A DNA stretch of 64,000 bases from Catellatospora vulcania (lineage in GTDB: Bacteria > Actinomycetota > Actinomycetes > Mycobacteriales > Micromonosporaceae): the NCBI RefSeq assembly GCF_009720385.1, contig NZ_WARX01000007.1, positions 310,001-374,000 on the forward strand, written 5' to 3'. This document shows, piece by piece, positions 12,503-60,713 of this stretch. How positions within the stretch are numbered: position 1 is the first letter of the stretch; each line of letters starts with the position of its first letter. Under the pieces are notes generated by a model, which worked only from the letters and a program-made list of their open reading frames with translations, made no database searches and was not told the origin of the DNA. A program made the translations under genes and the position numbers.

Positions 12503-13768
12503 TCAGCCGACGAAGCTGCCCCTGATGAAGAGCAGGAGCAGCCCGGCCTGGATCGGCACGGCCGCGAGCAGGTAAGCCTCCCGGGCCGACCGGCGGTGCA
12601 GCATCTTCGCGAGCACCATGAACGCCGGGATGACCGCTATCGCGAACCGGTTGAGCGACAGCAGCGGCGTGTTGCCGTACGGCAGCGGCTGGCAGAGCGC
12701 GAAGAGGAACGGCAGCGCGCCGAAGATGATCAGGAAGAACTGGTCACGGCGCAGCTTCCAGGGCCCGACGAGAGCGAGCGCCAGCAGCGCGGTCATGCCG
12801 ATCGCGGTGACGACGTCCATGATGTTGCGCATCGCCAGGGTGCGGTTGGCCTCGAAGTCGATCGCCTGGATCGCGTACCGGACGCCGCTCCACGGGGGCG
12901 CGGTCCGCCGTCCCCAGAGCGACTGCACCTCGATGAAGACGAGCGGGTTGCCGTAGGCACGCCACAGGAAGATCATGTAGAGCGCCAGGCCGGCCGGCAC
13001 CAGCGCGACCGCGAGCACGTCCAGCCGGACCTTGCGCCAGTCGAACCCGCGCCGCCGCAGGTACTCGTAGAGCAGCGCGAGCGCGAGCACCAGCCCGATC
13101 ACCCGGGTGGCGCCGGCCAGCGCGCCGGCGAGCCCGGCCAGCCACCAGCGCTCGCGGCGGGCGAGGTAGAGGCAGGTGACGGAGAACAGCAGGAAGGTCG
13201 ACTCGCTGTAGCCGGCGGCGAGGAACATCGCGGCCGGGAACGCGGCGAACATCAGCACCGCGCGGTTGCCGGGTTCGACGCCGAGCTCGGTCTGCATCAG
13301 CCGGGCCAGCATGATCATCAGGGCGAGCGCTGCCACGTTGGACGCGATCACGGTGGCGAGCACCGCCGATCCGGGCAGGATCAGGTCGAATCCACGGGTG
13401 AGCAGGGGGAAGACGGGCGGCCACGCGGTGTACGCCTCGGCAGGCCAGCCGGGATTCAACAGGGTCTCCGTGCCCGCGCGCGGATACCCCTGGATCGCGA
13501 TCGCCGCGTAGTTGCAGGAGTCGAACTGGGCGAGCTGGTGGAGCAGGTCGCCGAGCACGCCGTGGCGGGTGGTGTCCCAGTTGCAGTGGCCGGTCGTCCG
13601 GTTGACGGCCAGCGCCACGAACTCGACGGCGGCGACGAGAATCCGCCCGACGAGCCAGTAGGCCAGACCCGCGCGGACCGCACTCTTCCAGTGCGGGTCG
13701 GCGGGTGAAGTGTTCGGGTGTTCTGCGGCAGATGTGGCGCTTTCCCCGTTGTTGATCTTGATCTGCAC
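12503..13768 (-). CDS. Mannosyltransferase family membrane protein (PIG-V/GT-C like)
   Basis: 421 residues with about 9-10 membrane helices. The first extracytoplasmic loop holds the family motif FDSCNYAAIAIQGYP (near residue 85), corresponding to the WDS-xxY-xxIA-xxGY pattern of PF04188-like enzymes, in which the Asp is catalytic. These enzymes transfer a sugar from a polyprenyl-phosphate donor, in actinobacteria usually to lipoglycans. The N terminus is a short, charged cytoplasmic tail. The gene stands alone. The start ATG 13768 is followed by MQIKINNGES; the tail is not conserved-looking, so a later start is possible. Confidence 0.8.
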   Translation of the reverse strand: MQIKINNGESATSAAEHPNTSPADPHWKSAVRAGLAYWLVGRILVAAVEFVALAVNRTTGHCNWDTTRHGVLGDLLHQLAQFDSCNYAAIAIQGYPRAGTETLLNPGWPAEAYTAWPPVFPLLTRGFDLILPGSAVLATVIASNVAALALMIMLARLMQTELGVEPGNRAVLMFAAFPAAMFLAAGYSESTFLLFSVTCLYLARRERWWLAGLAGALAGATRVIGLVLALALLYEYLRRRGFDWRKVRLDVLAVALVPAGLALYMIFLWRAYGNPLVFIEVQSLWGRRTAPPWSGVRYAIQAIDFEANRTLAMRNIMDVVTAIGMTALLALALVGPWKLRRDQFFLIIFGALPFLFALCQPLPYGNTPLLSLNRFAIAVIPAFMVLAKMLHRRSAREAYLLAAVPIQAGLLLLFIRGSFVG

Positions 13769-20273: not shown

Positions 20274-20325
20274 GAAGGAAGGGCACCTTCTTATCGCTCC
20301 GCGTATAAGAAGGTGCCCTTCTTAA
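20274..20325. terminator. Family A hairpin, copy 1
   Basis: Perfect 16-base arms AAGGGCACCTTCTTAT (20279-20294) and its complement (20305-20320), loop CGCTCCGCGT, flanked by GAAGGA and CTTAAC. It starts 4 bases after the metallo-hydrolase stop. The T-rich right flank fits intrinsic termination. The same element occurs at 23371, 34016, 34737 and 56806. Confidence 0.8.
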
Positions 20326-23309: not shown

Positions 23310-23370
23310 GCGCCTGGCGCACACAGCCGGCCGTCGCCGAAACAGCGCAGGTCACCCGCCCGAGGAGTTT

Positions 23371-23418
23371 GGAAGGGCACCTTCCTCTACGTATGGCGAT
23401 GGGAAGGTGCCCTTCCTT
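23371..23418. terminator. Family A hairpin, copy 2 (between convergent genes)
   Basis: Arms 23371-23385 and 23402-23416 pair perfectly over 15 bases (GGAAGGGCACCTTCC). The 16-base loop contains ACGTATGGCGAT. It lies 61 bases after the kinase stop and 2 bases before the lyase stop on the other strand, so it can serve both genes. Confidence 0.78.
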
Positions 23419-23420
23419 CG

Positions 23421-25688
23421 TCAGCGGAGGTAGATGTTGGGGGTCGGGGGTGTGGTCATGCCGTCGCCGATGAAGAAGCTGGGGTGTGGGGGCTGGTTGT
23501 AGGCGGTGTTTTGCCAGGCGATGGCGACTCGGTACATCGGGTCGTGCATCAGGGTGTGGATGCGGCGGTCGGTGGTGTTGGTGGTGGCGTAGATGCGCAG
23601 GGCGGTGTTGCCGCTGGTGCGCCAGATGACTTCTTCGCGCCAGTCGCCGAACAGGTCGGCCGACAGGGCGGGGGTGGATTTGGTGCCGTTGTTGGAGGCG
23701 ACGCCGCTGCCGGTGAGCAGCCGGGTGTCTCCGCTGGTGCCGTACTTGTCGATGTGCGTGCCGTCGAGCAGTTCGCGCACCGGGTCGCCGTCCCACCAGA
23801 CCAGGAAGTTGATCGAGCTGGGCTCCCGGCCGAGGGACGCCCCGTTGGCCGTGTTGCGCAGGGTGGTGTCGCTGGCCGACCAGGCTTCCGCGCCGGGGCT
23901 GCCGGCCCAGATGTCGCCCGCGACCCCGCGGCCGTTGTCCGCGCCGGAGGCGGTGCTCCAGAGGACCTGGCCGGTACGCGCGTCGGCGAGCCACGAGCCG
24001 GGCTGGCTGGTCGACTCGCTGACCTTGAAGACCTCCAGCCCGGCCCGGCTCGGGACCAGGTCGCCGACGTGCATGGCGTCGCCGTGGCCGCGGCCGGTGT
24101 TCCACAGCGGGGTGCCGTTGTCGTTGATGGTCATCGCGCCGAAGATGATCTCGTCGCGGCCGTCGGCATCGACGTCGCCGATGGACAGCTGGTGGTTGCC
24201 CTGCCCGGCGTACGCGCTGCCGGCGCTGTTGGAGTCGAACGTCCAGCGCCGGGTCAGCGAGCCGTTGCGGAAGTCCCAGGCCACGATGACGGTGCGGGTG
24301 TAGTACCCGCGCGACATGATCAGGGACGGGCGCACGCCGTCGAGGTAGGCCGTGCCGGCCAGGAACCGGTCGACGCGGTTGCCGTAGCTGTCGCCCCAGG
24401 ACGAGACCGTGCCGCGGGCCGGTTCGTAGCTGACCGTGGACAGGGCCGCGCCGTTGAGGCCGTTGAACATGGTCAGGTATTCGGGCCCGGCCAGCACGTA
24501 GCCGTCGGCGTTGCGGTGGTCGGCGCTCGCATTGCCGATGACGGCGCCGACGCCGTCGCGGGTGGCGTCGGCGGTCTTCATGGCGACTTCGGCGCGGCCG
24601 TCGCCGTCGTAGTCGTACACCTGGAACTGGGTGTAGTGGGCTCCGGCGCGGATGTTGCGACCGAGGTCGATGCGCCACAGCCGGGTGCCGTTGAGCCGGT
24701 AGGCGTCGACGTAGACGTTGCCGGTGACGCCGGCCTGCGAGTTGTCCTTGGCGTTGTCGGGGTCCCACTTGAGGACGATCTCATACTGGCCGTCGCCGTC
24801 GAGGTCGCCGACGGAGGCGTCGTTGGCAGAGTAGCCGCTCGCCGGTGCGGAGATCGGCACGTCGAGGTAGTTGCCGCCGCTGAACCGCAGTGACGTCTCG
24901 GACGCGGCCTGTTCGACCCCGCCGACGACGGCGCGCACGGTGTAGGAGGCGTCGGCCGCGGCCCCGCTGTCCAGGTAGTTGGTCGAGTTGGTGATCGGCG
25001 AGGAGTTCACCTTCGTGCCGGCGCGGTACACGTTGAAGCCGGTGCTGTAGGACTCGGTGCCCAGCAGCCGCCAGGAGACCAGGTTGGCGCTGCCGGAGCG
25101 GACGCTGACCAGGCCCCGGTTGAGGTCCTCCATCTGCTTGGCCCCGGACGGCGGCGGGCCGGACGGCGACGGGCTCGGCGAGGCGGGGGCGGACGGTGAC
25201 ACCGACGGCGAGGCCGACGGCCGCGGGGACGCCGATGTGGACGGCGACGGTGCGGCCGAGGTCGGCGCGGGCGCGCCGGTGCAGGTGGTGCCGTTGAGGG
25301 CGAAGCTCGCCGGGGCCGGGTTCGACGCGTTGTTCCAGGACGCGTTGAAGCCGAAGGCAGTGCTCGCGTTGGTGGCGATGGGGGCGTTGTAGCCGGCGTC
25401 GGTGACGGAGACGTTCGCGCCGGACTGGGTGAAGCTGCCGTTCCAGAGCTGAGTGACGGCCTGACCGGCGGTGAATGCCCAGGTCAGGGTCCAGCCGTTG
25501 ACGGGGTCGCCGAGGTTGGTGATGGTGACGTTGGCGCCGAAGCCGCCGCCCCACTGGTTGGTGACGGCGTAGTCGACGCGGCAGCCTGCGGCCGCCTGGG
25601 CGCTGACCGCGGTCACGACGCCCGCGGTCAGGACGGTGACGGTGGCGGCGGCGAGCACCGCGAGCCGTCGTCGGGTACGAGTGGGCAT
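23421..25688 (-). CDS. Secreted rhamnogalacturonan lyase (PL11) with N-terminal CBM2
   Basis: 755 residues. Signal peptide 1-33 (RTRRRLAVLAAATVTVLTAG, ending AQAAA). Residues 35-138 form a CBM2 with cysteines at both ends (GCRVDYAVTNQWGGGFGANV to NGTTCTG) and the Trp pattern of cellulose binders. A Pro/Ser/Ala linker follows (about 140-195). Residues 198-755 match YesW/YesX-type lyases: an Fn3-like start (NLVSWRLLGTESYSTGFNVY), then an eight-bladed propeller with calcium loops such as DASVGDLDGDGQYEIVLKW, VYDYDGDGRAEVAMKTADAT and IGDVDADGRDEIIFGAM. PL11 enzymes cleave the rhamnogalacturonan I backbone by beta-elimination outside the cell. CBM2 would tether it to cellulose in plant walls. No defect is seen. 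Confidence 0.94.
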   Translation of the reverse strand: MPTRTRRRLAVLAAATVTVLTAGVVTAVSAQAAAGCRVDYAVTNQWGGGFGANVTITNLGDPVNGWTLTWAFTAGQAVTQLWNGSFTQSGANVSVTDAGYNAPIATNASTAFGFNASWNNASNPAPASFALNGTTCTGAPAPTSAAPSPSTSASPRPSASPSVSPSAPASPSPSPSGPPPSGAKQMEDLNRGLVSVRSGSANLVSWRLLGTESYSTGFNVYRAGTKVNSSPITNSTNYLDSGAAADASYTVRAVVGGVEQAASETSLRFSGGNYLDVPISAPASGYSANDASVGDLDGDGQYEIVLKWDPDNAKDNSQAGVTGNVYVDAYRLNGTRLWRIDLGRNIRAGAHYTQFQVYDYDGDGRAEVAMKTADATRDGVGAVIGNASADHRNADGYVLAGPEYLTMFNGLNGAALSTVSYEPARGTVSSWGDSYGNRVDRFLAGTAYLDGVRPSLIMSRGYYTRTVIVAWDFRNGSLTRRWTFDSNSAGSAYAGQGNHQLSIGDVDADGRDEIIFGAMTINDNGTPLWNTGRGHGDAMHVGDLVPSRAGLEVFKVSESTSQPGSWLADARTGQVLWSTASGADNGRGVAGDIWAGSPGAEAWSASDTTLRNTANGASLGREPSSINFLVWWDGDPVRELLDGTHIDKYGTSGDTRLLTGSGVASNNGTKSTPALSADLFGDWREEVIWRTSGNTALRIYATTNTTDRRIHTLMHDPMYRVAIAWQNTAYNQPPHPSFFIGDGMTTPPTPNIYLR

Positions 25689-26150: not shown

Positions 26151-26600
26151 ATGGTTGTGTCGGCGCTGTTTCGGCGATGGCATTGGTGGCGTTTCGCGGC
26201 CGTCGGCGTGGTGTGTTTCGGCGCGCAGACCGCGGTCCTGGTGCCGCTGGAGCGGGCCGGGATGGCGGCAGCCTTCGCCAACGCCACCGGGTTCTGGCTG
26301 TCGGCGCAGCTGAACTTCGTGCTGAGTTCCCTGTTCACCTGGCGCGACCGGCCGGCCCGCGGGACCCGGGCGGTGCTGGCCCGGTGGTGGCAGTACCAGG
26401 GCATGGCCTACCTGTCGCTCGCCATGAACTCGCTCGTCTTCGTGGCGGCCGAGCCGGTGACCGGGCAGCTGTCCGCGTCGGCGATCGGCGTGCTCATCGG
26501 CGCGTGCTTCTCGTACGCCGTCAGCAAGTTCCTGATCTTCCGGCCGGCTCGCGCCACGGCGCTCCCGCCGGCCGCACACCGCGAGGAGATGATGGCGTGA
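26151..26600 (+). CDS. GtrA family membrane protein
   Basis: 149 residues, ATG 26151 with AGGTGAGGGA upstream. Four membrane helices: WWRFAAVGVVCFGAQTAVLV, ATGFWLSAQLNFVLSSLF, AYLSLAMNSLVFVAA and IGVLIGACFSYAVSKFLIF, with the basic cytoplasmic ends usual in GtrA. GtrA-like proteins act as flippases or carriers for polyprenyl-phosphate-linked sugars, often beside a GT2 enzyme that makes the donor. It overlaps the next gene by GTGA, giving the same donor-synthase plus flippase pairing seen in Shigella gtrA-gtrB and mycobacterial lipoarabinomannan work. Confidence 0.9.
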   Translation: MVVSALFRRWHWWRFAAVGVVCFGAQTAVLVPLERAGMAAAFANATGFWLSAQLNFVLSSLFTWRDRPARGTRAVLARWWQYQGMAYLSLAMNSLVFVAAEPVTGQLSASAIGVLIGACFSYAVSKFLIFRPARATALPPAAHREEMMA

Positions 26601-28933
26601 CCGAGGTCGCGTTGCGCAGCACCGTGCGGGCACTGCCCGCCTACGAGGACGGCCTGGTGGTCGTCATGCCCGCCTACCGGGAGGGCGAGAACCTCGCCGC
26701 GACGGTCACCGACTTCCTGCAAACGCTGGAGTCGGCGCACGTGCCGCACGCGGTGGTGGTCGTCGACGACGGCAGCCCCGACGACACCGGGACTGTGCTC
26801 GACGAGCTGGCCGCCGCGCACCCCGGCCGGGTCCTGCCGGTGCGGCACGAGCAGAACCGCGGCTACGGCGCCGCGGTGCGCAGCGGCATCGCGGCCGCGC
26901 TGGAGCGCACCCGGCTGCGGCACATCCTGCTGACCGACTCCGACGGCCAGTTCCGGGCCGCCGACGTGCTGGACTTCCTGGAGGTGGCCCAGCGCGAGCG
27001 GGCCGACGCGGTGATCGGCTACCGCAAGCACCGGGCCGATCCGTGGCGGCGGCGGGTGAACGCCTGGATCTGGACCCGCCTGTGCGGAGTCGTGCTGCGG
27101 CTGCGCAGCCGCGACGTGGACTGCGCGTACAAGCTGATCGACCGCAGGCTGCTGGAGGGCGTCGAGCTGAACGGCGAGGCGGCGGCGATCTCGCCGGAGC
27201 TGCTTGCCAAGATCAGAGTGGGCGGGTCCCGGGTGATCGAGCATCCGGTCAGCCACTACCCGCGGGTGCACGGCGAGCAGACCGGGGCGAACCTGCTGGT
27301 GGTGCTGCGCTCGCTGCTCAGCCTGGCCGGGGTATACCTGCAGCTGGTGCGGGAGTCGCACAAGCAGCGCTGGCTGCGCGGCCTGCTGCGGCCGGCCGAC
27401 CCGGCGCTGGTGCTGGTGACGCTCGCGGTCACCGCGCTGTCCGTGGGGGCCTACCTGTACTTCCTGCAGCAGGACGCGGTGCTGGCGTACAAGGACGCCA
27501 ACTCGCACCTGCTCATCGCGCGCCGGGTGCTGGAGAGCCCGACGGCGGGCCTGGCCCAGCTCGGCGGGGTGTGGCTGCCGCTGCCGCACCTGCTGGCGCT
27601 GCCCCTGGTATGGCATGACGGGCTGTACGAATCCGGCCTGGCCGGGGCGCTGATCTCGATGATCGCGTTCGTGGTCACCGCGCGTTACCTGTACCGGCTC
27701 GGCACGTCGCTGGCCGACAGCCGGTTCGCCGGGGTCGCGACGGCGCTGCTGTTCGCGGTCAACGCCAACGCGCTCTACCTGCAGTCCACCGCGATGACCG
27801 AGAGCCTGCTGTTCGCCTGCATCGCCGCCACCACCTACCACCTGCACCGGTGGTGCCGGTTCGGGCACTACCGCGACCTGGTCGCGACGTCGGCGGCGGT
27901 GCTGTTCGCCACCGTCACCCGCTACGAGGGCTGGGTGCTGTGCCTGGCCGCCCTGATCGTGGTGCTGACGACCGAGTTCCGCCGGCACCGCGACGTCATC
28001 CGGGTCGAGGCGGCGCTGATCTTCTACGGCTTCATCGCGTTCGCCGGCATCGGCGGCTGGCTGCTGTGGAACACCGCCATCTTCGGCGACCCGATGTACT
28101 GGCGCAGCGGCGAGTACGCCGACTCGACGCTTTGGGTCAAGGAGGGCGAGGCGGCCGTCGGCTCGCTGGACGTGTCCGCGTCCACGTACTGGCTGGCCGT
28201 CGAGCACAACATCGGCCTGGTCAGCCTCATCCTCGGCCTGCTCGGCGTCATCGCGTACGCGGTCCGGCACCGGCTGCGCGCCGAGCACGTCGCGGTCTAC
28301 CCGCTGCTGCTGTTCGGCGCGTTCTTCGTGTACGCCCTCTACTCCGGCCAGCGCCCGCTGCACGTGCGGGAGTACGGCGGCGAGCTGTACAACGTCCGGT
28401 TCGGACTGATCATGCTGCTGCCCGCTGCGGTGTTCGCCGGATACCTGGTGAGCCTGGCTCCGGCGCTGGCCGAGCGGCTGAACCGGCCCGCGCTGGCGCG
28501 GGTGGCCAAGGGCGTGGTCGCCGCGGGCGTGCTGTCCACCGCGCTGGCGGTGCCCGGCGTGATCACGCTCGACGAGGCCCGGGACTTCCGCAACAGCGCC
28601 TGGGAGGCCGCCAACGCGTCCGCCTCGGGCTGGCTGCGCGGCAACCACCACGGCGAGCTGACGCTGATGATGTCGTTCGAGAACGAGTCGGTCACCTTCG
28701 ACTCGCGCATCCCCACCGAGGCCATCGTCTACGAGGGCAGCTACCAGCTCTGGGAGCGGGCGCTGGCCGACCCGGCCGCGTCGGACATCGAGTGGATCTA
28801 CATGCGCGCGCTGCCCGGCCAGGAGGACCAGGTGTGGCGTGAGCTGCACGGCACCCGGCAGCTGGAACAGCACTACGCGCTGGTCTACGAGCACGAGCAC
28901 CGCCTCATCTACCGACGGAAGGACAAGCCGTGA
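26597..28933 (+). CDS. GT2 polyprenyl-phosphate sugar synthase fused to a GT-C-like membrane domain
   Basis: 778 residues from GTG 26597. Residues 15-250 are a DPM1/GtrB-type GT2: VVVMPAYREGENL, VVVVDDGSPDDTG and LTDSDGQFRAAD (the DxD), ending IEHPVSHYPRVHGEQTG. From about residue 260 it becomes a polytopic region with about 9-10 helices: ALVLVTLAVTALSVGAYLYF, then GALISMIAFVVTARYLYRLG and TMTESLLFACIAATTYHLHR, with an extracytoplasmic loop and a C-terminal soluble part ending in a sequence on MRALPGQEDQVWRELHG. The second half resembles GT39/PMT-like enzymes by helix layout, with loop YKDANSHLLIARRVLESPTA. Such enzymes add the lipid-linked sugar to an outside acceptor. Fusion of donor synthesis and transfer domains is unusual. 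Confidence 0.82.
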   Translation: MTEVALRSTVRALPAYEDGLVVVMPAYREGENLAATVTDFLQTLESAHVPHAVVVVDDGSPDDTGTVLDELAAAHPGRVLPVRHEQNRGYGAAVRSGIAAALERTRLRHILLTDSDGQFRAADVLDFLEVAQRERADAVIGYRKHRADPWRRRVNAWIWTRLCGVVLRLRSRDVDCAYKLIDRRLLEGVELNGEAAAISPELLAKIRVGGSRVIEHPVSHYPRVHGEQTGANLLVVLRSLLSLAGVYLQLVRESHKQRWLRGLLRPADPALVLVTLAVTALSVGAYLYFLQQDAVLAYKDANSHLLIARRVLESPTAGLAQLGGVWLPLPHLLALPLVWHDGLYESGLAGALISMIAFVVTARYLYRLGTSLADSRFAGVATALLFAVNANALYLQSTAMTESLLFACIAATTYHLHRWCRFGHYRDLVATSAAVLFATVTRYEGWVLCLAALIVVLTTEFRRHRDVIRVEAALIFYGFIAFAGIGGWLLWNTAIFGDPMYWRSGEYADSTLWVKEGEAAVGSLDVSASTYWLAVEHNIGLVSLILGLLGVIAYAVRHRLRAEHVAVYPLLLFGAFFVYALYSGQRPLHVREYGGELYNVRFGLIMLLPAAVFAGYLVSLAPALAERLNRPALARVAKGVVAAGVLSTALAVPGVITLDEARDFRNSAWEAANASASGWLRGNHHGELTLMMSFENESVTFDSRIPTEAIVYEGSYQLWERALADPAASDIEWIYMRALPGQEDQVWRELHGTRQLEQHYALVYEHEHRLIYRRKDKP

Positions 28934-30417
28934 CCGAGGTGTCGACCCATACCGCCGTCCCCAGCCGGGTGGCCGCCCCACGCCAGGTGGCCCCGCTGCC
29001 GCCGGAGCTCAGCGCCCAGACCCTGCTCAGCCGGGGCCAGGTGGTGACCGCGTCCGTGCTGCTCGGCGGGATCGCGGCCCTGCTGGTGCTGCATCTGACG
29101 ACCGGCCTCGGCCCGTCGCCGCTGTGGTGGGGGCAGTTCGCCGTGGTCGCGGTGACGGTCGCGTACGTCGCCGTCATCGCGTTCAAGCTGGCCATGGTGT
29201 TCCGGGCCGGCGGCGCGGCGGTGGTGCGCTTCCAGCCCGCCGACCTGGCCGTCATCCGCGACGTCGACCTGCCCGTGTACACGGTGCTGGTGCCGCTGCA
29301 CCGCGAGGCGCAGGTGCTGCCGCACCTGGTCCGGCGGCTGACCGAGCTGGACTACCCGGCCGCGAAGCTGCAGATCCTGCTGCTCATCGAGGAGGACGAC
29401 GCGCAGACCCGAGGGGCGCTGGACAACCTGGACCTGCCCGCGCAGTTCGAGACGGTGCTGATCCCGCACTCGACGCCCAAGACCAAGCCCAAGGCCTGCA
29501 ACGTCGGCCTGGCTCGCGCGGTCGGCGAGTTCTGCGTCATCTACGACGCCGAGGACCGGCCCGACCCGGACCAGCTGCGCAAGGCGGTGCTCGCGTTCCG
29601 GGTGCTGCCCGACCGGGTCGTCTGCGTGCAGGCCGAGCTGCAGTACTGGAACCCCTGGACGAACTGGCTGACCCGGTGCTTCGCGGCGGAGTACGCGACG
29701 AACTTCAGCCTGTCGCTGCGCGGCCTGGACCGGCACCGGCTGGCCATCCCGCTGGGCGGCACCTCGAACCACTTCCGCACCGACGCCCTCGCCGAGCTGG
29801 GCGGGTGGGACCCGTTCAACGTCACCGAGGACGCCGACCTGGGCATCCGCATCGCCCGGCGGGGCTGGGACGTGCGCATGATGGTGTCGGTCACCGAGGA
29901 GGAGGCCAACAGCCGGCTGGGCAACTGGGTCCGCCAGCGCAGCCGCTGGATCAAGGGCTACCTGCAGACCTGGCTGGTGCACACCCGCCACCCGATCCGG
30001 CTGTGGCGCGAGCTGGGCGCCAAGCGCACCCTGGCCATGCACCTGACGCTGGGGCTGTCCACGGTCACCTCGCTGATCAACCCGGTGTTCTGGCTGATGA
30101 CGCTGAGCTACCTGGTGTTCGGGCCGCGCTACCTGGAGCCGTTCTTCCCCGGCGTGACCCTGTACGTCGGCGTGCTGACCATGCTCATCGGCAACGCGAT
30201 GATGGCGTACTGCCTGATGAACGGGTGCATGGAGCGCGGCCTGCACCGGGCCGTGCGGGCCATGCTCAGCGTGCCCCTGTACTGGGGCCTGATGAGCGTC
30301 GCCGCCTACAAGGCCCTGTTCCAGCTGATGCGCCCGAGCCGGCGCCACTTCTGGGAGCTGACCGAACACGGCCTGGTCGAGCAGGACCAGCCGCCGGCCA
30401 TCCCCGCCCCCCGCTGA
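28930..30417 (+). CDS. Cellulose synthase-like processive glycosyltransferase (GT2, BcsA-like)
   Basis: 495 residues from GTG 28930, overlapping the previous stop by 4 bases. Two N-terminal membrane helices (TASVLLGGIAALLVLHL; FAVVAVTVAYVAVIAFKLAM), then a GT2 catalytic domain: YTVLVPLHREAQVLPHLVRR, VIYDAEDRPDPDQL (the DxD region), NVTEDADLGIRIARRGW (catalytic Asp) and WVRQRSRWIKGYLQTW (QxxRW). Four more helices follow. All processive-synthase motifs are present. No PilZ domain is visible, so cyclic-di-GMP control is not supported. It would make and push out a linear beta-glycan; its product cannot be named. Confidence 0.88.
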   Translation: MTEVSTHTAVPSRVAAPRQVAPLPPELSAQTLLSRGQVVTASVLLGGIAALLVLHLTTGLGPSPLWWGQFAVVAVTVAYVAVIAFKLAMVFRAGGAAVVRFQPADLAVIRDVDLPVYTVLVPLHREAQVLPHLVRRLTELDYPAAKLQILLLIEEDDAQTRGALDNLDLPAQFETVLIPHSTPKTKPKACNVGLARAVGEFCVIYDAEDRPDPDQLRKAVLAFRVLPDRVVCVQAELQYWNPWTNWLTRCFAAEYATNFSLSLRGLDRHRLAIPLGGTSNHFRTDALAELGGWDPFNVTEDADLGIRIARRGWDVRMMVSVTEEEANSRLGNWVRQRSRWIKGYLQTWLVHTRHPIRLWRELGAKRTLAMHLTLGLSTVTSLINPVFWLMTLSYLVFGPRYLEPFFPGVTLYVGVLTMLIGNAMMAYCLMNGCMERGLHRAVRAMLSVPLYWGLMSVAAYKALFQLMRPSRRHFWELTEHGLVEQDQPPAIPAPR

Positions 30418-30438
30418 CCGACAGAAGGACCCCTTCCG

Positions 30439-33400
30439 ATGCCGTTCACCTACCGACGCGCGGCCGCCGCCGCGGCGAGCGCGCTCGTGCTCGCCGCGGT
30501 CAGCGCGGCCGCGCCGCTGCCCGCGCACGCCGGGCCGCCGGCCGAGTTCGACAAGACCGTGCTCACCGCCGACCTGGAGGAGCCGACAGCTTTCCGGTTC
30601 ACGCACGACGGCGCCATCCTGATCGCCGAGAAGAAGGGCACCATCCGGCTGTACGCCCACGGCGAGCTGCACGACGAGCCGGTGCTGAGCCTGCCCACGG
30701 CCAGCACCGACGAGCGCGGCCTGCTCGGACTGGAACTCGACCCCGACTTCGCGACGAACAAGTGGTTCTACGTCGCGTACACCCACGCCGACAACCTCGA
30801 CCGGCTCAGCCGCTTCACGATGACCGGCGAGCACACCGCCGACCCCGCCTCCGAGGTGATCCTGCTGCGCTCCAACCAGCAGGCCAACGTCTTCCACCAC
30901 GGCGGTGAGGTGCGGTTCGGGCCCGACGGCAAGCTGTACTGGTCGCTGGGGATCAACGTCTACCACCCGAACGCGCCGAACCTGGGCACGCTGCACGGCA
31001 AGGTGCTGCGGATCAACAGGAACGGCACGATCCCGGCGGACAACCCGTTTGTCGGCATGCCCGGCGCGGAACCCGCGATCTGGGCGTACGGGCTGCGCAA
31101 CACGTTCCGCTTCGACGTGGTGCCCGACGGGCCGAACGCGGGCCGGCTGCTCGGCGGCGACGTGGGCGGCTCGGAGCAGGAGGAGCTGAACCTCATCGAG
31201 CGCGGGGCCGACTACGGCTGGCCCTACGCCGAGGGCGTGTGCGCGGGCTGCGGGTACGCCCAGCCGGTGTACACCTACCCGCACACGGCTCCGCCGGCCA
31301 GCGCCGGGTCGATCAGCGCGGTGGAGGTTTACGACGGCGAGCTGTTCCCGGCCGCGTACGACCATGTCGTGTTCTTCGGCGACTACACGCTCGGGTTCGT
31401 CAAATACCTGGTCATGGATCCGAGTTACACCAGTGTCATCGCGGTGCACGACTTCGACCTGGACGCGGGCACGCCGGTGCAGCTGACGACCGGCCCCGAC
31501 GGGGCGCTGTACCAGCTGAACATCTACCCGGGCGCGCTCTACCGGATCGCGCCGTCGGGCGGCAACCGCACGCCGGTCGCGCGCGCCACGGCGACCCCGG
31601 ACAACGGCCTCGCGCCGCTGCCGGTGCAGTTCTCCTCGACCGGATCGGCGGACCCCGACGGCACGCCGCTGAGCTACCTGTGGACCTTTCCCGACGGCAC
31701 CACCTCGACTGCCGCGAACCCGCAGAAGACGTTCACGGCCAACGGGGTGCACAACGTGACCCTGCGCGTCAGCGACGGTGACAAATCGGACACGACCACG
31801 GTGCCGGTGCAGGTCGGCAACCGGCGTCCCACCGGCGTCATCACCGCTCCGGTCGCCGAGTCCGGCTACGACGCCGGGAACGTGATCACATACGCGGGCG
31901 CCGCGACCGACCCGGACTCCGGCCCGCTGCCGGCGAGCGCCTACTCGTGGTCGGTGATCTTCCACCATGCCGAGCACGTGCACCCGTTCCTCGGGCCGAT
32001 CACCGGGGTGACCGGCGGAAACTTCACCATCCCGCGCATCGTCGACAACATCGACACCACCTGGTACGAGATCCAGCTGACGGTCACCGACGCGGGCGGG
32101 CTGAAGCACACGTCGTCGGCGCACATCCGGCCGCACCTGGTGACGCTAACGTTCGGCGCGTCCACGCCGGGGCTGCAGTACACGGTCGACGGCATCCCGT
32201 ACACGGGCACCCGGACCGAGCGGGCCGTGGTCGGGGTGGAGCGCACCCTCGGCGCGGTGTCGCCGCAGTGGGTCGGCGGGCTGCAGTACCTGTACGGCGG
32301 CTGGTCCGACGGCGGGGCGCAGACCCACGTGATCACCACGCCCGCCCAGGACGCCGCGTACACGGTGGACTTCGCGCAGATCAACCCGCCGCCCGCGCCG
32401 TGGGATAGCGACGACATCGGCACCCGCACCATCGCCGGGCTGTCGTCCTACGACGACGGCGTGTTCACGGTGAAGGGCGGTGGCCACGACATCTGGGACG
32501 CCACCGACGAGTTCCGCTACGTGCACCAGCCGCTGGTCGGGGACGGCGCCATCGTCGCCCGGCTGACGAGCCAGAGCGAGACCTACGAGTGGGCCAAGGC
32601 CGGTGTGATGATCAAGGAGTCGGCCACGGAGGGTGCGTCGTACGCGGCCCTCGCGGTGACGCCCGACCACGGCGTGCACTTCCAGGCCGACTTCGACGAG
32701 GACGATGGGGAGTTCGCGTACACCCTGCCGAACGCCTGGTTGAAGCTCACCCGCACCGGGGCGACGATCGAGGGCTTCCTGTCCGTCGACGGGCAGGCCT
32801 GGACGCCGATCGGGACCACGCAGCTGGCGCTGTCCGCGACCGCGACCATCGGCCTGTTCGTGACCTCGCACGACAACGCGGTGCTGTCCACGGCGACGTT
32901 CGACCACGTCACCGTGTCCGGCGATGCCGACCCGTCGCTGCCCGCCCCGTGGGTCCACCAGGACGTGGGCACGCCCGCGATCGCCGGTGGGGCCACGGAG
33001 ATCGGCGGCGTCTTCAGCGTCACCGGCGCGGGCGGCGACATCTGGGGCGAGGCGGACCAGTTCCACTTCGTGCACCAGCCGCTGACCGGCAACGGCACGC
33101 TCATCGCGCGGGTCGCCGGCCAGCAGGACACCGAGGAGTGGGCCAAGGCCGGTCTCATGATCAAGGACGGCACGGCGGCAGGGGCGACGTACGCGCTGCT
33201 CGCGGTCACCCCGGAGCGCGGCGTACACCTGCAGGCGAACTTCGCCACCGACCTGGCCGGCAGCGCCTCGGCCGCGCCGCGCTGGCTGAAACTGACCCGT
33301 ATCGGCACCACCGTCACCGGCCACGAGTCAGCCGACGGCAACGCCTGGACGCTCATCGGCTCGGTGCAACTGCCGGCGCTGCCCGCCACCGCCCAGCTCG

Positions 33401-34008
33401 GCCTGTTCGTCACCTCGCACGACGCAGGGCAGGCCGGCCTGGCCGTATTCGAGCACGTCAGCGTCACCGCGGCCGCGCCGTCCCTGCCCGCCGGATGGTC
33501 GCAGACGGACGTCGGCGCGCCGGCCCTGCTCGGCTCGGCCGGCGTCACCAACTCAACCTGGACGGTGTCCGGCGCGGGCAACGACATCTGGGCCGACACC
33601 GACCAGTTCCACTACGTGTACCGGGCACTACCCGGCGACGGCACCATCACGGCGCGGGTCCTCACCCAGGCCGGCACCAACGACTGGGCCAAATCCGGCG
33701 TCATGATCAAAGAATCGACGACGGCGATGTCGCCGTACGCGGCGGTGTTCCTCACCCCCGGGCACGGCATCCACTTCCAGCACGGCTTCACCGCCGACGT
33801 CGACGGCGGCGCAGGAAGCGTCCGCACCTGGCTGCGGCTGGTCCGCACCGGGGCCCTCGTCACCGCCTACCGCTCCGCCGACGGCGCCACCTGGACCACC
33901 ATCGGCACGGCAACCGTCACCGGTCCGGCGACCGCGGGCCTGTTCGTCACCTCCCACAACGGCAGCACCCTCAACACCACCACCTTCGACCAGGTCTCCC
34001 TCACCTGA
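30439..34008 (+). CDS. Secreted PQQ-type sugar dehydrogenase with PKD and three ConA-like repeats
   Basis: 1189 residues. Signal peptide 1-33 (ending LPAHAGPP). Residues 36-376 are a soluble glucose/sorbosone dehydrogenase propeller: LEEPTAFRFTHDGAILIAEK, STDERGLLGLELDPDF, HHGGEVRFGPDGKLYWSLG and PAIWAYGLRNTFRFDVVP. Residues 378-465 are a PKD domain (LPVQFSSTGSADPDGTPLSY); another beta domain follows to about 640. Three repeats of about 180 residues (654-835, 836-1016, 1018-1189) each contain GGHDIWDATDEFRYVHQPL and EWAKAGVMIKES variants, like DUF1349/ConA-type lectin domains. Starting 21 bases after the synthase, it ends the operon and has a hairpin after it. PQQ dependence is from the family, not from the operon. 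Confidence 0.9.
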   Translation: MPFTYRRAAAAAASALVLAAVSAAAPLPAHAGPPAEFDKTVLTADLEEPTAFRFTHDGAILIAEKKGTIRLYAHGELHDEPVLSLPTASTDERGLLGLELDPDFATNKWFYVAYTHADNLDRLSRFTMTGEHTADPASEVILLRSNQQANVFHHGGEVRFGPDGKLYWSLGINVYHPNAPNLGTLHGKVLRINRNGTIPADNPFVGMPGAEPAIWAYGLRNTFRFDVVPDGPNAGRLLGGDVGGSEQEELNLIERGADYGWPYAEGVCAGCGYAQPVYTYPHTAPPASAGSISAVEVYDGELFPAAYDHVVFFGDYTLGFVKYLVMDPSYTSVIAVHDFDLDAGTPVQLTTGPDGALYQLNIYPGALYRIAPSGGNRTPVARATATPDNGLAPLPVQFSSTGSADPDGTPLSYLWTFPDGTTSTAANPQKTFTANGVHNVTLRVSDGDKSDTTTVPVQVGNRRPTGVITAPVAESGYDAGNVITYAGAATDPDSGPLPASAYSWSVIFHHAEHVHPFLGPITGVTGGNFTIPRIVDNIDTTWYEIQLTVTDAGGLKHTSSAHIRPHLVTLTFGASTPGLQYTVDGIPYTGTRTERAVVGVERTLGAVSPQWVGGLQYLYGGWSDGGAQTHVITTPAQDAAYTVDFAQINPPPAPWDSDDIGTRTIAGLSSYDDGVFTVKGGGHDIWDATDEFRYVHQPLVGDGAIVARLTSQSETYEWAKAGVMIKESATEGASYAALAVTPDHGVHFQADFDEDDGEFAYTLPNAWLKLTRTGATIEGFLSVDGQAWTPIGTTQLALSATATIGLFVTSHDNAVLSTATFDHVTVSGDADPSLPAPWVHQDVGTPAIAGGATEIGGVFSVTGAGGDIWGEADQFHFVHQPLTGNGTLIARVAGQQDTEEWAKAGLMIKDGTAAGATYALLAVTPERGVHLQANFATDLAGSASAAPRWLKLTRIGTTVTGHESADGNAWTLIGSVQLPALPATAQLGLFVTSHDAGQAGLAVFEHVSVTAAAPSLPAGWSQTDVGAPALLGSAGVTNSTWTVSGAGNDIWADTDQFHYVYRALPGDGTITARVLTQAGTNDWAKSGVMIKESTTAMSPYAAVFLTPGHGIHFQHGFTADVDGGAGSVRTWLRLVRTGALVTAYRSADGATWTTIGTATVTGPATAGLFVTSHNGSTLNTTTFDQVSLT

Positions 34009-34015
34009 CCAAGAC

Positions 34016-34065
34016 GAAGGAAGGGCGCCTTCTTATCGCTCCGCGTATAAGAAGGCGCCCTTCTT
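34016..34065. terminator. Family A hairpin, copy 3 (with compensatory change)
   Basis: Arms AAGGGCGCCTTCTTAT (34021-34036) and its perfect complement (34047-34062), loop CGCTCCGCGT identical to copy 1. Relative to copy 1, an A-T pair is replaced by a G-C pair on both arms. It starts 8 bases after the dehydrogenase stop and ends with CTTGACT. Confidence 0.8.
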
Positions 34066-34086
34066 GACTCTGTAGGTGCCGGGTCG

Positions 34087-34736: not shown

Positions 34737-34784
34737 AGGAAGGGCACCTTCTACAACGCATAGCGATGTGAAGGTGCCCTTCCT
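34737..34784. terminator. Family A hairpin, copy 4 (between convergent genes)
   Basis: Arms AGGAAGGGCACCTT (34737-34750) and AAGGTGCCCTTCCT (34771-34784), with an inner partial stem of ACAACGC and GCGATGT around ATA. It lies 27 bases past the plus-strand stop and touches the stop of the minus-strand permease at 34785. Confidence 0.78.
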
Positions 34785-55400: not shown

Positions 55401-56798
55401 ATGGGAATCCGCAAGGGCCGCCTGGCCTTGACGGCGGGCACGGCGCTCGTGCTGACCGCCGCCACGGTCGCCACGGTGCTGACGGTGTCGGCGCAGACCG
55501 CCAGCGCCGCGACGTCCACCTTCACCCCGGCGGCCGACACCTACGTGCAGGCCGACACTGCGTCGACCAACTACGGCACCTCCGTGCAGATCACCGTCGA
55601 CAGCTCGCCGCAGCGGCAGATGTTCCTGCGCTTCACGGTCAGCGGTGTCAGCGGCACGGTGACCAGCGCGAAGCTGCGGCTGCGGCACATCAGCGGCAAC
55701 GACGGCAGCGTCGCCGGCGGCACGTTCCGCGCGATGTCGAACACGTCGTGGTCGGAGACCTCCACGACCTGGAACAACAAGCCGGCCCTGGACGGGGTGT
55801 CGCTGGGCAGCCTCGGCTCCGTCGTCGCCAACGGCTGGTACGAGGTCGACGTGACCTCGTACGTCACCGGCAACGGCTCGTTCAGCATCGGCGCCAGCTC
55901 GACCAACAGCGACGGCGCGTACTACGACACCCGGGAGTCCGGAGCGGACTCGCCGCAGCTGGTGGTGACCACCGGCACGACGCCGTCGCCGAGCCCGTCG
56001 ACGCCGCCGTCCGGTGACCCGGTGCTGGTCGGCGCGGGTGACATCGCGGACTCCGGCTCGGGCGACACCGCGACCGCGGCGCTGCTGGACGGCATCTCCG
56101 GCACGGTCTTCACCACCGGCGACAACGTCTACACCAACGGCACCGCCTCGGAGTTCAGCAGCTACTACAACCCGACCTGGGGCCGCCACAAGGCGCGCAC
56201 CCGGCCCGCGCCCGGCAACCACGACTACAACACCTCGGGCGCGACCGGCTACTACAACTACTTCGGCTCGGTCGCCGGTCCGTCGGGTCAGGGGTACTAC
56301 TCCTACGACCTGGGCAACTGGCACGTCGTGTCGCTGAACTCGAACATCAGCATGTCGGCGGGCTCGGCCCAGGAGACCTGGCTGCGCAACGACCTGGCCG
56401 CCAGCGGCAAGCCGTGCACGATCGCGTACTGGCACCACCCGCTGTTCACCTCGGGCGCCAACCACGCCCCGTCCACCTCGACCCGCCCGCTGTACCAGGC
56501 GCTGTACGACTACAACGCCGACGTCGTCGTCTGGGGTCACAACCACCAGTACGAGCGCTTCGCGCCGATGAACCCGAGCGGCGCGGCGGACAGTTCCCGC
56601 GGCATGCGCTCGTTCGTGGCGGGCATGGGCGGCGCGGGCTTCTACGGCTTCGGCACCATCGCGCCCAACAGCCAGGCCCGCAACAGCGACACCTGGGGCG
56701 TCCTGAAGTTCACCCTGCACGCCAACACCTACGACTGGCAGTTCGTCCCCCAGTCCGGCAAAACCTACAACGACACCGGCACCGGCACCTGCCACTGA
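55401..56798 (+). CDS. Secreted metallophosphoesterase with N-terminal DNRLRE (CBM96-like) domain
   Basis: 465 residues from ATG 55401 (AGAAGGG upstream). Signal peptide 1-36 (ending TASAA). Residues 38-195 are a DNRLRE domain: TPAADTYVQADTASTNYGTS, QMFLRFTVSGVSGTVTSAKL and WYEVDVTSYVTGNGSFSIGA, a fold that binds glycans or carries repeats on secreted proteins. After a Ser/Pro linker, residues 205-460 form a metallophosphoesterase: GDIADSG (metal Asp), TGDNVYTNG, PGNHDYNTS, WHHPLFTSG and VVWGHNHQYERFAP. It likely removes phosphate from extracellular organic phosphates, possibly glycan-linked. A family A hairpin follows. Confidence 0.9.
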   Translation: MGIRKGRLALTAGTALVLTAATVATVLTVSAQTASAATSTFTPAADTYVQADTASTNYGTSVQITVDSSPQRQMFLRFTVSGVSGTVTSAKLRLRHISGNDGSVAGGTFRAMSNTSWSETSTTWNNKPALDGVSLGSLGSVVANGWYEVDVTSYVTGNGSFSIGASSTNSDGAYYDTRESGADSPQLVVTTGTTPSPSPSTPPSGDPVLVGAGDIADSGSGDTATAALLDGISGTVFTTGDNVYTNGTASEFSSYYNPTWGRHKARTRPAPGNHDYNTSGATGYYNYFGSVAGPSGQGYYSYDLGNWHVVSLNSNISMSAGSAQETWLRNDLAASGKPCTIAYWHHPLFTSGANHAPSTSTRPLYQALYDYNADVVVWGHNHQYERFAPMNPSGAADSSRGMRSFVAGMGGAGFYGFGTIAPNSQARNSDTWGVLKFTLHANTYDWQFVPQSGKTYNDTGTGTCH

Positions 56799-56805
56799 CA
56801 AGCTG

Positions 56806-56856
56806 AAGGAAGGGCACCTTCACATCGCTCCGCGATGTAGAAGGTGCCCTTCTTAA
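56806..56856. terminator. Family A hairpin, copy 5
   Basis: Outer stem AAGGGCACCTTC (56810-56821) with GAAGGTGCCCTT (56840-56851); inner stem ACATCGC (56822-56828) with GCGATGT (56832-56838), loop TCC. The inner stem differs from copy 1 (TTAT with ATAA) but still pairs. It starts 7 bases after the phosphoesterase stop and ends CTTAACG. Confidence 0.8.
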
Positions 56857-58817: not shown

Positions 58818-60713
58818 ATGACCACGACCGTCACCGCCCCGCCGGCCGCGCCCCTGCCACCGCCGTCCCGCCGCCGCGGCCGCCTGCTCGCCGCGGGCCT
58901 CGTGCTCCTGCTGGCCGCTGCCGCCGCCGTCTACTGGCTGACCCGCGACACCGACGACGGCGCATACGATCCCGACGCGCCCTATCTCGACGCGTCGCGG
59001 CCGGTGGCCGAGCGGGTCGACGACCTGCTGGGCCGGATGACCCTCGACGAGAAGATCGGCCAGATGACGCAGGCCGAGCGCCGCGAGGTGACCACGGGCG
59101 ACGTCACCACGTACGCCCTTGGCTCGCTGCTGTCCGGCGGCGGCTCGGTGCCCGACGACAACAGCCCGCAGGGCTGGGCGCAGATGTACGACGGCTTCCA
59201 GACCGAGGCCCTGGCCACCCGCCTGCGCATCCCGATGATCTACGGCGTGGACGCCGTGCACGGCCACAACAACGTGCGCGGGGCCACGATCTTCCCGCAC
59301 AACATCGGCCTGGGCGCCACCCGCGACCCGCAGCTGGTGCGCCGGATCGGCGAGACCGTCGCCGTAGAGGTCGCCGCGACCGGCCTGGACTGGGACTTCG
59401 CCCCGTGCCTGTGCGTGGCCCGCGACGCCCGCTGGGGGCGCACCTACGAGTCCTTCGGCGAGGACCCGGAGATCGCCTCCTCGATGACCACGATCGTGAC
59501 CGGGCTGCAGGGGGAGAAACTGGGCGGGCCCAACTCCGTGCTGGCCACCGCCAAGCACTACGTCGGCGACGGCGCGACCCTGGACGGCAAGGACCAGGGC
59601 GACGCCCGCATCCCGGAGGAGGAGCTGCGCAAGATCCACCTACCGCCGTTCCAGGCGGCCGTGAAGGCCGGCGTCGGCTCCGTGATGGTCTCCTTCAGCT
59701 CGTTCAACGGCGAGAAGCTGCACGCCCACCGGTACCTGGTCACCGAGGTGCTCAAGGAGGAGCTGGGCTTCACCGGCTTCGTGGTCTCCGACTGGAACGC
59801 CATCGACCAGATCGACGGCGCGACCGGCTTCACCCCGGCCGAGGTCAGCGCGGCGATCAACGCCGGCATCGACATGGTGATGGTGCCCGAGCGCTGGCGG
59901 GAGTTCATCACGGTGCTGCGCGACGAGGTCGACGCGGGCACCGTGCCGATGGCGCGCATCGACGACGCGAACCGGCGCATCCTGGCCAAGAAGTTCGAGC
60001 TGGGCATGTTCGAGCACCCGATGGCCGACCGCTCGCAGTTCGACAAGGTCGGGTCGGCGGCCCACCGCGAGCTGGCCCGCCAGGCCGTACGGCAGTCGCA
60101 GGTGCTGCTGAAGAACAACGGCGGCATCCTCCCCCTCAAGCCGAAGACCGGCAAGGTGTTCGTGGCCGGCCGCAGCGCCGACGACATCGGCAACCAGTCC
60201 GGCGGCTGGACGCTGACCTGGCAGGGCAGCTCCGGCCCGATCACCGAGGGCACCACGATCCTGCAGGGCATCAAGGAGGCCGTCGAACCGGGCGGCACGG
60301 TGACCTACAGCGCCGACGGCTCCGGAGTGGACCGCGGCTACGACGTGGCGATCGCCGTGGTCGGCGAGACGCCGTACGCCGAGTACGAGGGCGACCGTCC
60401 CGACGGGGTCAAGCTCGACAAGGTCGACCTGGACACGCTGGCCACCCTGCGCAAGGCGGGCGTGCCCGTGGTGGTGGTGCTGGTCTCCGGCCGGCCGGTG
60501 GACGTCAGCGCACCGCTGCCGCAGGTGCAGGCGCTGGTGGCGGCGTGGCTGCCCGGCACCGAGGGGGCCGGCGTCGCCGACGTGCTGTTCGGCGCGTACG
60601 CGCCGACCGGCAAGCTGCCCATGTCCTGGCCCGCGACCGCCGCCCAGGAACCCGTCAACTCCGGCGACGAGAAGACACCGCTGTTCCCGTACGGATTCGG
60701 GCTCAGCTACTGA
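58818..60713 (+). CDS. GH3 beta-glucosidase-type glycoside hydrolase, membrane-anchored or secreted
   Basis: 631 residues, ATG 58818 with AGGGAAGG. A basic stretch SRRRGRLLAAGLVLLL and helix (about 20-42) form a signal or anchor. N-terminal GH3 barrel (70-400): LLGRMTLDEKIGQMTQAERR, RIPMIYGVDAVHGHNNVRGA, IGLGATRDPQLVRRIGETVA and VARDARWGRTYESFGEDPEI; the nucleophile Asp is in GFVVSDWNAIDQI (near residue 325). C-terminal domain (430-631): LARQAVRQSQVLLKNNGGIL and GKLPMSWPATAAQEP. Length is shorter than many GH3 because the last FnIII-like domain is absent. It acts outside the membrane on beta-linked oligosaccharides. Confidence 0.93.
   Translation: MTTTVTAPPAAPLPPPSRRRGRLLAAGLVLLLAAAAAVYWLTRDTDDGAYDPDAPYLDASRPVAERVDDLLGRMTLDEKIGQMTQAERREVTTGDVTTYALGSLLSGGGSVPDDNSPQGWAQMYDGFQTEALATRLRIPMIYGVDAVHGHNNVRGATIFPHNIGLGATRDPQLVRRIGETVAVEVAATGLDWDFAPCLCVARDARWGRTYESFGEDPEIASSMTTIVTGLQGEKLGGPNSVLATAKHYVGDGATLDGKDQGDARIPEEELRKIHLPPFQAAVKAGVGSVMVSFSSFNGEKLHAHRYLVTEVLKEELGFTGFVVSDWNAIDQIDGATGFTPAEVSAAINAGIDMVMVPERWREFITVLRDEVDAGTVPMARIDDANRRILAKKFELGMFEHPMADRSQFDKVGSAAHRELARQAVRQSQVLLKNNGGILPLKPKTGKVFVAGRSADDIGNQSGGWTLTWQGSSGPITEGTTILQGIKEAVEPGGTVTYSADGSGVDRGYDVAIAVVGETPYAEYEGDRPDGVKLDKVDLDTLATLRKAGVPVVVVLVSGRPVDVSAPLPQVQALVAAWLPGTEGAGVADVLFGAYAPTGKLPMSWPATAAQEPVNSGDEKTPLFPYGFGLSY

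Follow-up and report, generated by a model that had tools for sequence, protein, structure and literature searches.

A four-gene glycan locus in Catellatospora vulcania

How could a small GtrA-type membrane protein, a fused pair of glycosyltransferases (GTs), a BcsA-like synthase and a large secreted protein, encoded side by side, act on one glycan? The four genes lie at 26151..34008 of a 64,000-nucleotide stretch of Catellatospora vulcania DNA (the window; contig NZ_WARX01000007.1, positions 310,001 to 374,000), in whose numbering all positions are given. We propose, with confidence slightly better than even, that they encode a synthase-coupled system decorating an extracellular glycan, in which the polymer, the side sugar and the role of the secreted partner are putative. 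The computed support covers gene content, domain families, the folds of the fusion, gene order, reading-frame overlap and parallel divergence.

All four genes are on the forward strand. The first (26151..26600) encodes a GtrA/DPMS-TM small membrane protein of 149 aa (PF04138, 55.1 bits, cutoff 26.1). It is followed by the GT2-GT-C fusion (26597..28933, GTG start, 778 aa; PF00535, 80.1 bits, and in the C-terminal half PF13231, PMT_2, 37.0 bits, cutoff 26.1), the BcsA-like, processive-type GT2 synthase (28930..30417, GTG start, 495 aa; PF13632, 91.6 bits, and PF13641, 78.0 bits) and a secreted-type protein made of GSDH, PKD and three DUF1349 units (30439..34008, ATG start, 1189 aa; PF07995, 174.9 bits, and PKD_4, 68.4 bits). 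The GtrA and fusion genes overlap by 4 bp at 26597, as do the fusion and synthase genes at 28930, and 21 bases containing an imperfect palindrome (30418..30438, forward strand) separate the synthase from the secreted protein. A first reading of the DNA made from its letters (the sequence-only reading) had given this layout, and the open reading frames (ORFs) confirmed it. A perfect 17-bp inverted repeat (34018..34065, forward strand), a variant of a dispersed 44-nt element described below, starts 11 bases past the last stop; the 61-nt stretch 34010-34070 folded at -37.6 kcal/mol (z -7.67). This hairpin is likely a terminator, and the four genes likely form a single transcription unit. A promoter scan returned 0 hits against 0.5 expected, which says little for an actinomycete.

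The sequence-only reading had called the set a pathway it did not recognise. The locus is a conserved combination of modules each of known kind; for the combination itself, we found no account in the openly licensed papers that were covered.

GtrA and the GT2-GT-C fusion

The two halves of the fusion span approximately residues 15-254 (GT2) and 265-778 (GT-C). Predicted fold comparison indicated that the GT2 half is structurally like DPMS, ArnC and GtrB and the GT-C half like STT3, PMT, ArnT and AftB, families that we take to use polyprenyl-linked donors. A GT2-GT-C fusion had been predicted from sequence, and the two Pfam families within one ORF and the agreeing folds bear it out. The top-scoring NCBIfam for the GT2 half was PpgS (64.8 bits, far under its cutoff of 370), and this half appears to be of the polyprenyl-phosphate-sugar (polyprenyl-P-sugar) synthase type. 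The GtrA protein is proposed as the polyprenyl-P-sugar flippase. PF04138 was itself fused onto GT2-GT-C in 17 among the 120 matches listed of 686 homologues; the fusion-homologue alignment (A1) contained 50 sequences selected out of these 120.

The locus thus holds a GT-A fold polyprenyl-P-sugar synthase, a GtrA-type protein and a GT-C fold transferase, which is the composition described for multi-component transmembrane glycosylation systems (PMC8035078). Because these three families together make up a recognised system, the first two genes likely decorate the synthase product and do not feed the synthase.

The BcsA-like synthase

The DAED, ED and QxxRW motifs of the synthase, presumably the GT2 core motifs (the Asp motifs and QxxRW), were invariant across the 18 sequences of alignment A3, and comparison with BcsA in the Protein Data Bank (5ej1) gave E 1.1e-12. 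Its best NCBIfam score was CelA, at 56.7 bits far under the cutoff of 699.1. No PilZ match was found with Pfam in the protein, which ends at 495 aa, in keeping with the prediction of a processive-type enzyme lacking this domain. Assignment as BcsA itself was rejected on the CelA score, the missing PilZ and the lack of a BcsB partner. A paralogue in the same genome was looked for, and the matches reached only 28% and 26%. A plasmid search with the synthase returned 11 records, 10 of them at <60% identity. One source gives the name XagB to several relatives; XagB is tied to biofilm in Xanthomonas oryzae (PMC3609779), and this link has no bearing on the polymer made here.

Two synthase relatives, P0074 (residues ~500-800) and similarly P0080, carried a C-terminal extension of one hydrophobic segment and ~250 residues. 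It contains the motif AFGDxGPxASPGVPL, and Pfam matched nothing in either protein apart from the GT2 families. This extension is possibly another extracellular partner domain in fused form.

Conservation of the gene order

We looked for the fusion in 300 family genomes, and searched 394 genomes of the class and 249 of the order of genome G572 as well. In these searches and in the one with the secreted protein, no more than the best 2-4 candidates of each genome were scored. Near full-length matches (E <1e-280) were found in 14 of the 300 family genomes, including that of C. vulcania, which was the only one of 11 genomes in its genus with a strong match. Recurrence of the four-gene order elsewhere had been set beforehand as the test on which the sequence-only reading could fail. 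The test was passed: in all 13 other strong family relatives the four genes recurred in this order, from GtrA to the GSDH protein. Matches to the secreted protein at E up to 1e-100 occurred in 39 of the 300 family genomes; those above 1100 bits fell in 14 genomes, identical to the 14 with a strong fusion match. In the class, 4 of 394 genomes besides our own matched at 1e-60 or better, and in the order of G572, 20 of 249, two of which were already among the class 4.

The window, the 13 family loci and 22 loci from the class and order searches made up a set of 36. The fusion was followed by the synthase in all of them, and tblastn detected GtrA in 26 and the GSDH protein in 23. Contig ends cut L044 and L095, the latter counted as present on 87 GSDH residues. 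Counting available in-frame start codons, which are not proven starts, the 4-base overlap of fusion and synthase could be kept in 31 of the 36 loci. In the 13 strong family relatives an in-frame GSDH start overlapped the synthase stop by 8-14 bases with no gap, in eight further loci (L093, L115-L121) it lay 2-11 bases past the stop, and in L095 the first such start came 100 bases past it. The worry that the secreted protein is unrelated in expression to the synthase is probably answered by these overlapping or close starts, as far as sequence can answer it.

Pairwise distances of the four proteins across 22 loci were correlated at r 0.893-0.975, with a maximum of 0.502 in 999 permutations per pair. 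These values used the best tblastn segment per gene and did not have relatedness removed; such co-varying distances would fit co-inheritance, and shared ancestry alone would also give them. The flanks were inspected by eye on genes from a simple GC-bias caller, which misses genes such as GtrA. Most Glycomyces-like loci had a ribosomal-protein/secY/adk/map side, L038 (Paractinoplanes tereljensis) and L040, L039 and L041 had other genes, and in the window the unit is flanked by a rhamnogalacturonan lyase. Since the flanks differ between loci, the linkage has been kept across settings. A rare and patchy distribution is what historical or chance clustering of envelope genes with no common pathway would leave; against it, the order shared by all 13 strong relatives across settings, the overlapping frames and the gene fusions make this explanation hardly credible.

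Accessory genes in distant loci

The 36-locus counts exclude eight distant loci of the family (L051-L058, E 1e-60 to 1e-111), in which synthase and GT-C are ordered differently and neither GtrA nor GSDH was matched. In L051-L053 the synthase stood ahead of the fusion; in L054-L058 a GT-C match lay close to the synthase in five of five loci and a GSDH match in none. These gene sets support the partnership of synthase and GT-C. L058 had two successive synthase/GT-C pairs within one 20-kb stretch.

The same loci bear on whether the GT-C half acts on proteins, as in PMT-like O-glycosylation, perhaps on the GSDH protein, with the polymer of the synthase independent of it. A GSDH gene went undetected in 13 of the 36 loci, yet there too the fusion accompanies the synthase, and in L054-L058 a GT-C match lies near the synthase with no GSDH match, so we consider protein glycosylation quite improbable.

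The order synthase, GH113, GT-C was found in L054, L056 and L058, all three distant loci tested. GH113 is a mannanase family, and its position between synthase and GT-C would suit a hemicellulose-like product, either heteromannan or glucomannan, that bears branches of one sugar each. Such a product would be the bacterial equivalent of galactomannan and a special case of the decoration system. However, the synthases of the GH113 loci are just 37-40% identical to that of the window, a GH9 cellulase downstream in another locus (L132) hints at a beta-1,4-glucan, and CelA is the best NCBIfam score of the synthase; this product is unlikely. On a Geobacillus plasmid, a single case, a 47% identical synthase has BcsB beside it and is followed by a GT39 gene. 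The accessory next to the synthase thus appears to vary, being the GSDH protein, GH113 or BcsB, or in L132 a GH9 cellulase lying downstream.

Several of these observations count against a four-part decoration system. The unit is rare, given the 14 of 300 family genomes, the one of 11 in the genus and the four others of 394 in the class. The GSDH protein went undetected in 13 of 36 loci, among them L096, untestable because its contig stops 79 bases past the synthase ORF, and GtrA in 10 of 36, where tblastn with the window GtrA may miss divergent copies; the core therefore seems able to do without either. In the distant loci, the accessories (GH113, BcsB) accompany synthases merely 37-47% identical to ours. 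The Geobacillus GT39 protein had no detectable similarity to the fusion and a PMT_2 score just under the cutoff, and near a 47% identical synthase on a Frigoribacterium plasmid, whose gene table is incomplete, tblastn found no GT-C or GSDH match.

The secreted GSDH-family protein

The secreted protein comprised a GSDH domain (residues 46-361), a PKD domain (376-455) and three DUF1349 units (~650-1189) by Pfam, and its N-terminus looked signal-like by eye, in line with the exported partner that had been predicted. That a GSDH-family domain sits on a repeat array is certain from these matches. The number of DUF1349 stretches varied, from two in L041 and three in the window to four in L093 and L121. 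The model of the protein matched 3mep and 3o12 over 171-188 columns (TMt 0.70-0.74), with GH43 enzymes and laminins weaker. Judging by match length, in a table that gives no residue ranges, this match probably corresponds to a DUF1349 unit. The suggestion of lectin-like repeats is thus plausible at the level of fold; the function of 3mep and 3o12 is unknown.

The name 'sugar dehydrogenase', also given in the sequence-only reading, holds as an assignment to the family of PF07995, and on present evidence should be read as that alone. An active pyrroloquinoline quinone (PQQ) sugar dehydrogenase, oxidising the polymer or its breakdown sugars, would account for the GSDH match (174.9 bits) and for His153 and Arg220-Asn221. 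These residues were invariant in 15 orthologs and aligned with His144 and Arg228-Asn229 of s-GDH, which we take to be catalytic. However, the s-GDH residues Lys377, Arg406 and Arg408, presumably the basic C-terminal PQQ contacts, were replaced by Gly319, Pro346 and Gln348 (a gap in 7cdy) in pairwise alignments with 2g8s and 7cdy. The segment A343-V347, including Pro346, was invariant in the 15 orthologs. HHIP, a non-enzyme, shares the GSDH family with the secreted protein. We regard PQQ-dependent oxidation as unlikely. The pqqC search had no match in any genome, controls included, and hence no bearing on PQQ supply in the host, and the propeller model (pLDDT, the per-residue model confidence, <50 across much of residues 171-376) was too poor for a view of the pocket.

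Two further features were invariant in the 15 orthologs. A His-rich segment at residues 509-515 (H509, H510, H513 and H515), between PKD and the DUF1349 array, is a possible metal site (HH..H.H), and a Cys268/Cys271 pair within the GSDH domain is a possible disulfide.

In the 25 other family genomes with a secreted-protein match, GSDH-PKD relatives were found at 38-46% identity and <=515 bits, matching within residues 3-686, that is GSDH-PKD and the stretch up to the DUF1349 array. Six loci with stand-alone GSDH-PKD proteins were opened, and the two with a usable frame were scanned. These share the N-terminal module and have PA14 repeats where DUF1349 would stand.

Proposed mechanism

We hypothesize that the GT2 half of the fusion would load polyprenyl phosphate with one sugar on the cytoplasmic side, and that GtrA would aid membrane crossing of the polyprenyl-P-sugar. 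The BcsA-like synthase would build a beta-linked, probably cellulose-like backbone from nucleotide sugar and extrude the chain, on which the GT-C half, acting side by side with the synthase, would put the lipid-linked sugar as a side branch. Because the glycosylation module is joined to the synthase even where GSDH or GtrA was undetected, the product of the synthase is the probable acceptor. The GSDH-PKD-DUF1349 protein may bind and organise this product, like BcsB or GlxA, with or without redox chemistry. By analogy, and with moderate confidence, it would be a working extracellular part of the synthase, as GlxA is for CslA.

A more daring and tentative version, which we hold to be doubtful, joins the synthase and the fusion in one membrane complex, where the chain would be polymerised and branched in a single pass. 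A degenerate or repurposed GSDH propeller would there replace BcsB or GlxA and receive and anchor the product. If true, this would be a further actinomycete class of synthase-dependent glycan machine.

To our knowledge, synthase-dependent systems mostly extrude unbranched chains. A unit that couples a synthase to GtrA/GT-C would, if true, give bacteria a way to make a branched polymer resembling hemicellulose, and it would widen the set of extracellular partners for BcsA-like synthases in Gram-positive bacteria. GtrA/GT-C systems are described as decorating other wall polymers (PMC8035078). The locus would also offer a compact system for studying the export of lipid-linked sugars; PMC11127046 notes that flippase activity had not been demonstrated directly for the exporters that it treats.

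Other elements of the window

A dispersed paired-palindrome element of ~44 nt (GAAGGGCRCCTTC ... GAAGGYGCCCTTC) was present at 20276-20323, 23370-23417, 34018-34065, 34737-34784 and 56807-56854. The single-arm pattern, with <=2 mismatches on both strands, had 21 matches against 0.26 expected. Exact copies of GAAGGGCACCTTC-N10-24-GAAGGTGCCCTTC, nearly all of those listed being 44 nt, numbered 107 in the C. vulcania genome and from 1 to 192 in 10 other genomes of the genus, and the reversed control had none genus-wide. The element appears terminator-like or REP-like.

Divergent from the operon, the reverse strand encodes a family 11 rhamnogalacturonan lyase with CBM2 (23421-25688, Pfam), which had no tblastn match in 21 related loci. 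Further glycan-related genes of the window encode a PIG-V/GT87-like membrane transferase (12503-13768, reverse strand), a CBM96-metallophosphoesterase (55401-56798) and a GH3 glycosidase (58818-60713).

Comparison with known systems

In Streptomyces, the BcsA-like synthase CslA is described as translationally coupled to GlxA, an extracellular partner from an oxidase family; when an extracellular segment of GlxA was removed, the complex still formed, with reduced activity (PMC11022532). Like CslA-GlxA-CslZ, the locus places a BcsA-like GT2 next to such a partner. Unlike it, the partner belongs to the GSDH family and is not a copper radical oxidase, it has a signal-like start in place of a transmembrane anchor, and GtrA and the GT2-GT-C fusion are extra. 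Membership in the CslA-GlxA group was rejected, as none of the four proteins had the GO-like E-set domain (PF09118). The sole PF09118 match of the genome lay in an ORF of 1432 aa, as drawn by the simple caller, and the 20 kb around it gave no match to the synthase. With BcsA-BcsB the synthase shares the GT2 core motifs, whereas PilZ, BcsB and a CelA score near the cutoff are missing.

The gsf set of Actinoplanes missouriensis, an 11-gene cluster with a GtrA-dependent pathway in sporangium formation, has a proposed transferase that is not GT-C according to its authors (PMC13390465). It resembles the locus in its related actinomycete host, in combining GtrA with GT2 enzymes and in modifying exopolysaccharide, as far as the available text describes it, and has other enzymes; 'sorbosone' and 'cellulose synthase' are absent from that text. 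It is a different GtrA-containing set.

PMC3485146 connects the galactosamine of arabinogalactan in Mycobacterium tuberculosis with PpgS (Rv3631), Rv3632 and the GT-C protein Rv3779. The locus likewise has a GT2 enzyme, a small membrane partner and a GT-C that would move a polyprenyl-P-sugar to a wall polysaccharide, whereas here the two transferases are fused, a BcsA-like synthase stands alongside and the PpgS score is 64.8 against 370. The multi-component glycosylation systems (O-antigen Gtr, CsbB-GtcA-YfhO) share the same three families with the locus, and in them too GtrA adjoins the charging enzyme. In the C. vulcania locus, by contrast, GT-A and GT-C form one polypeptide whose reading frame overlaps that of a processive-type synthase.
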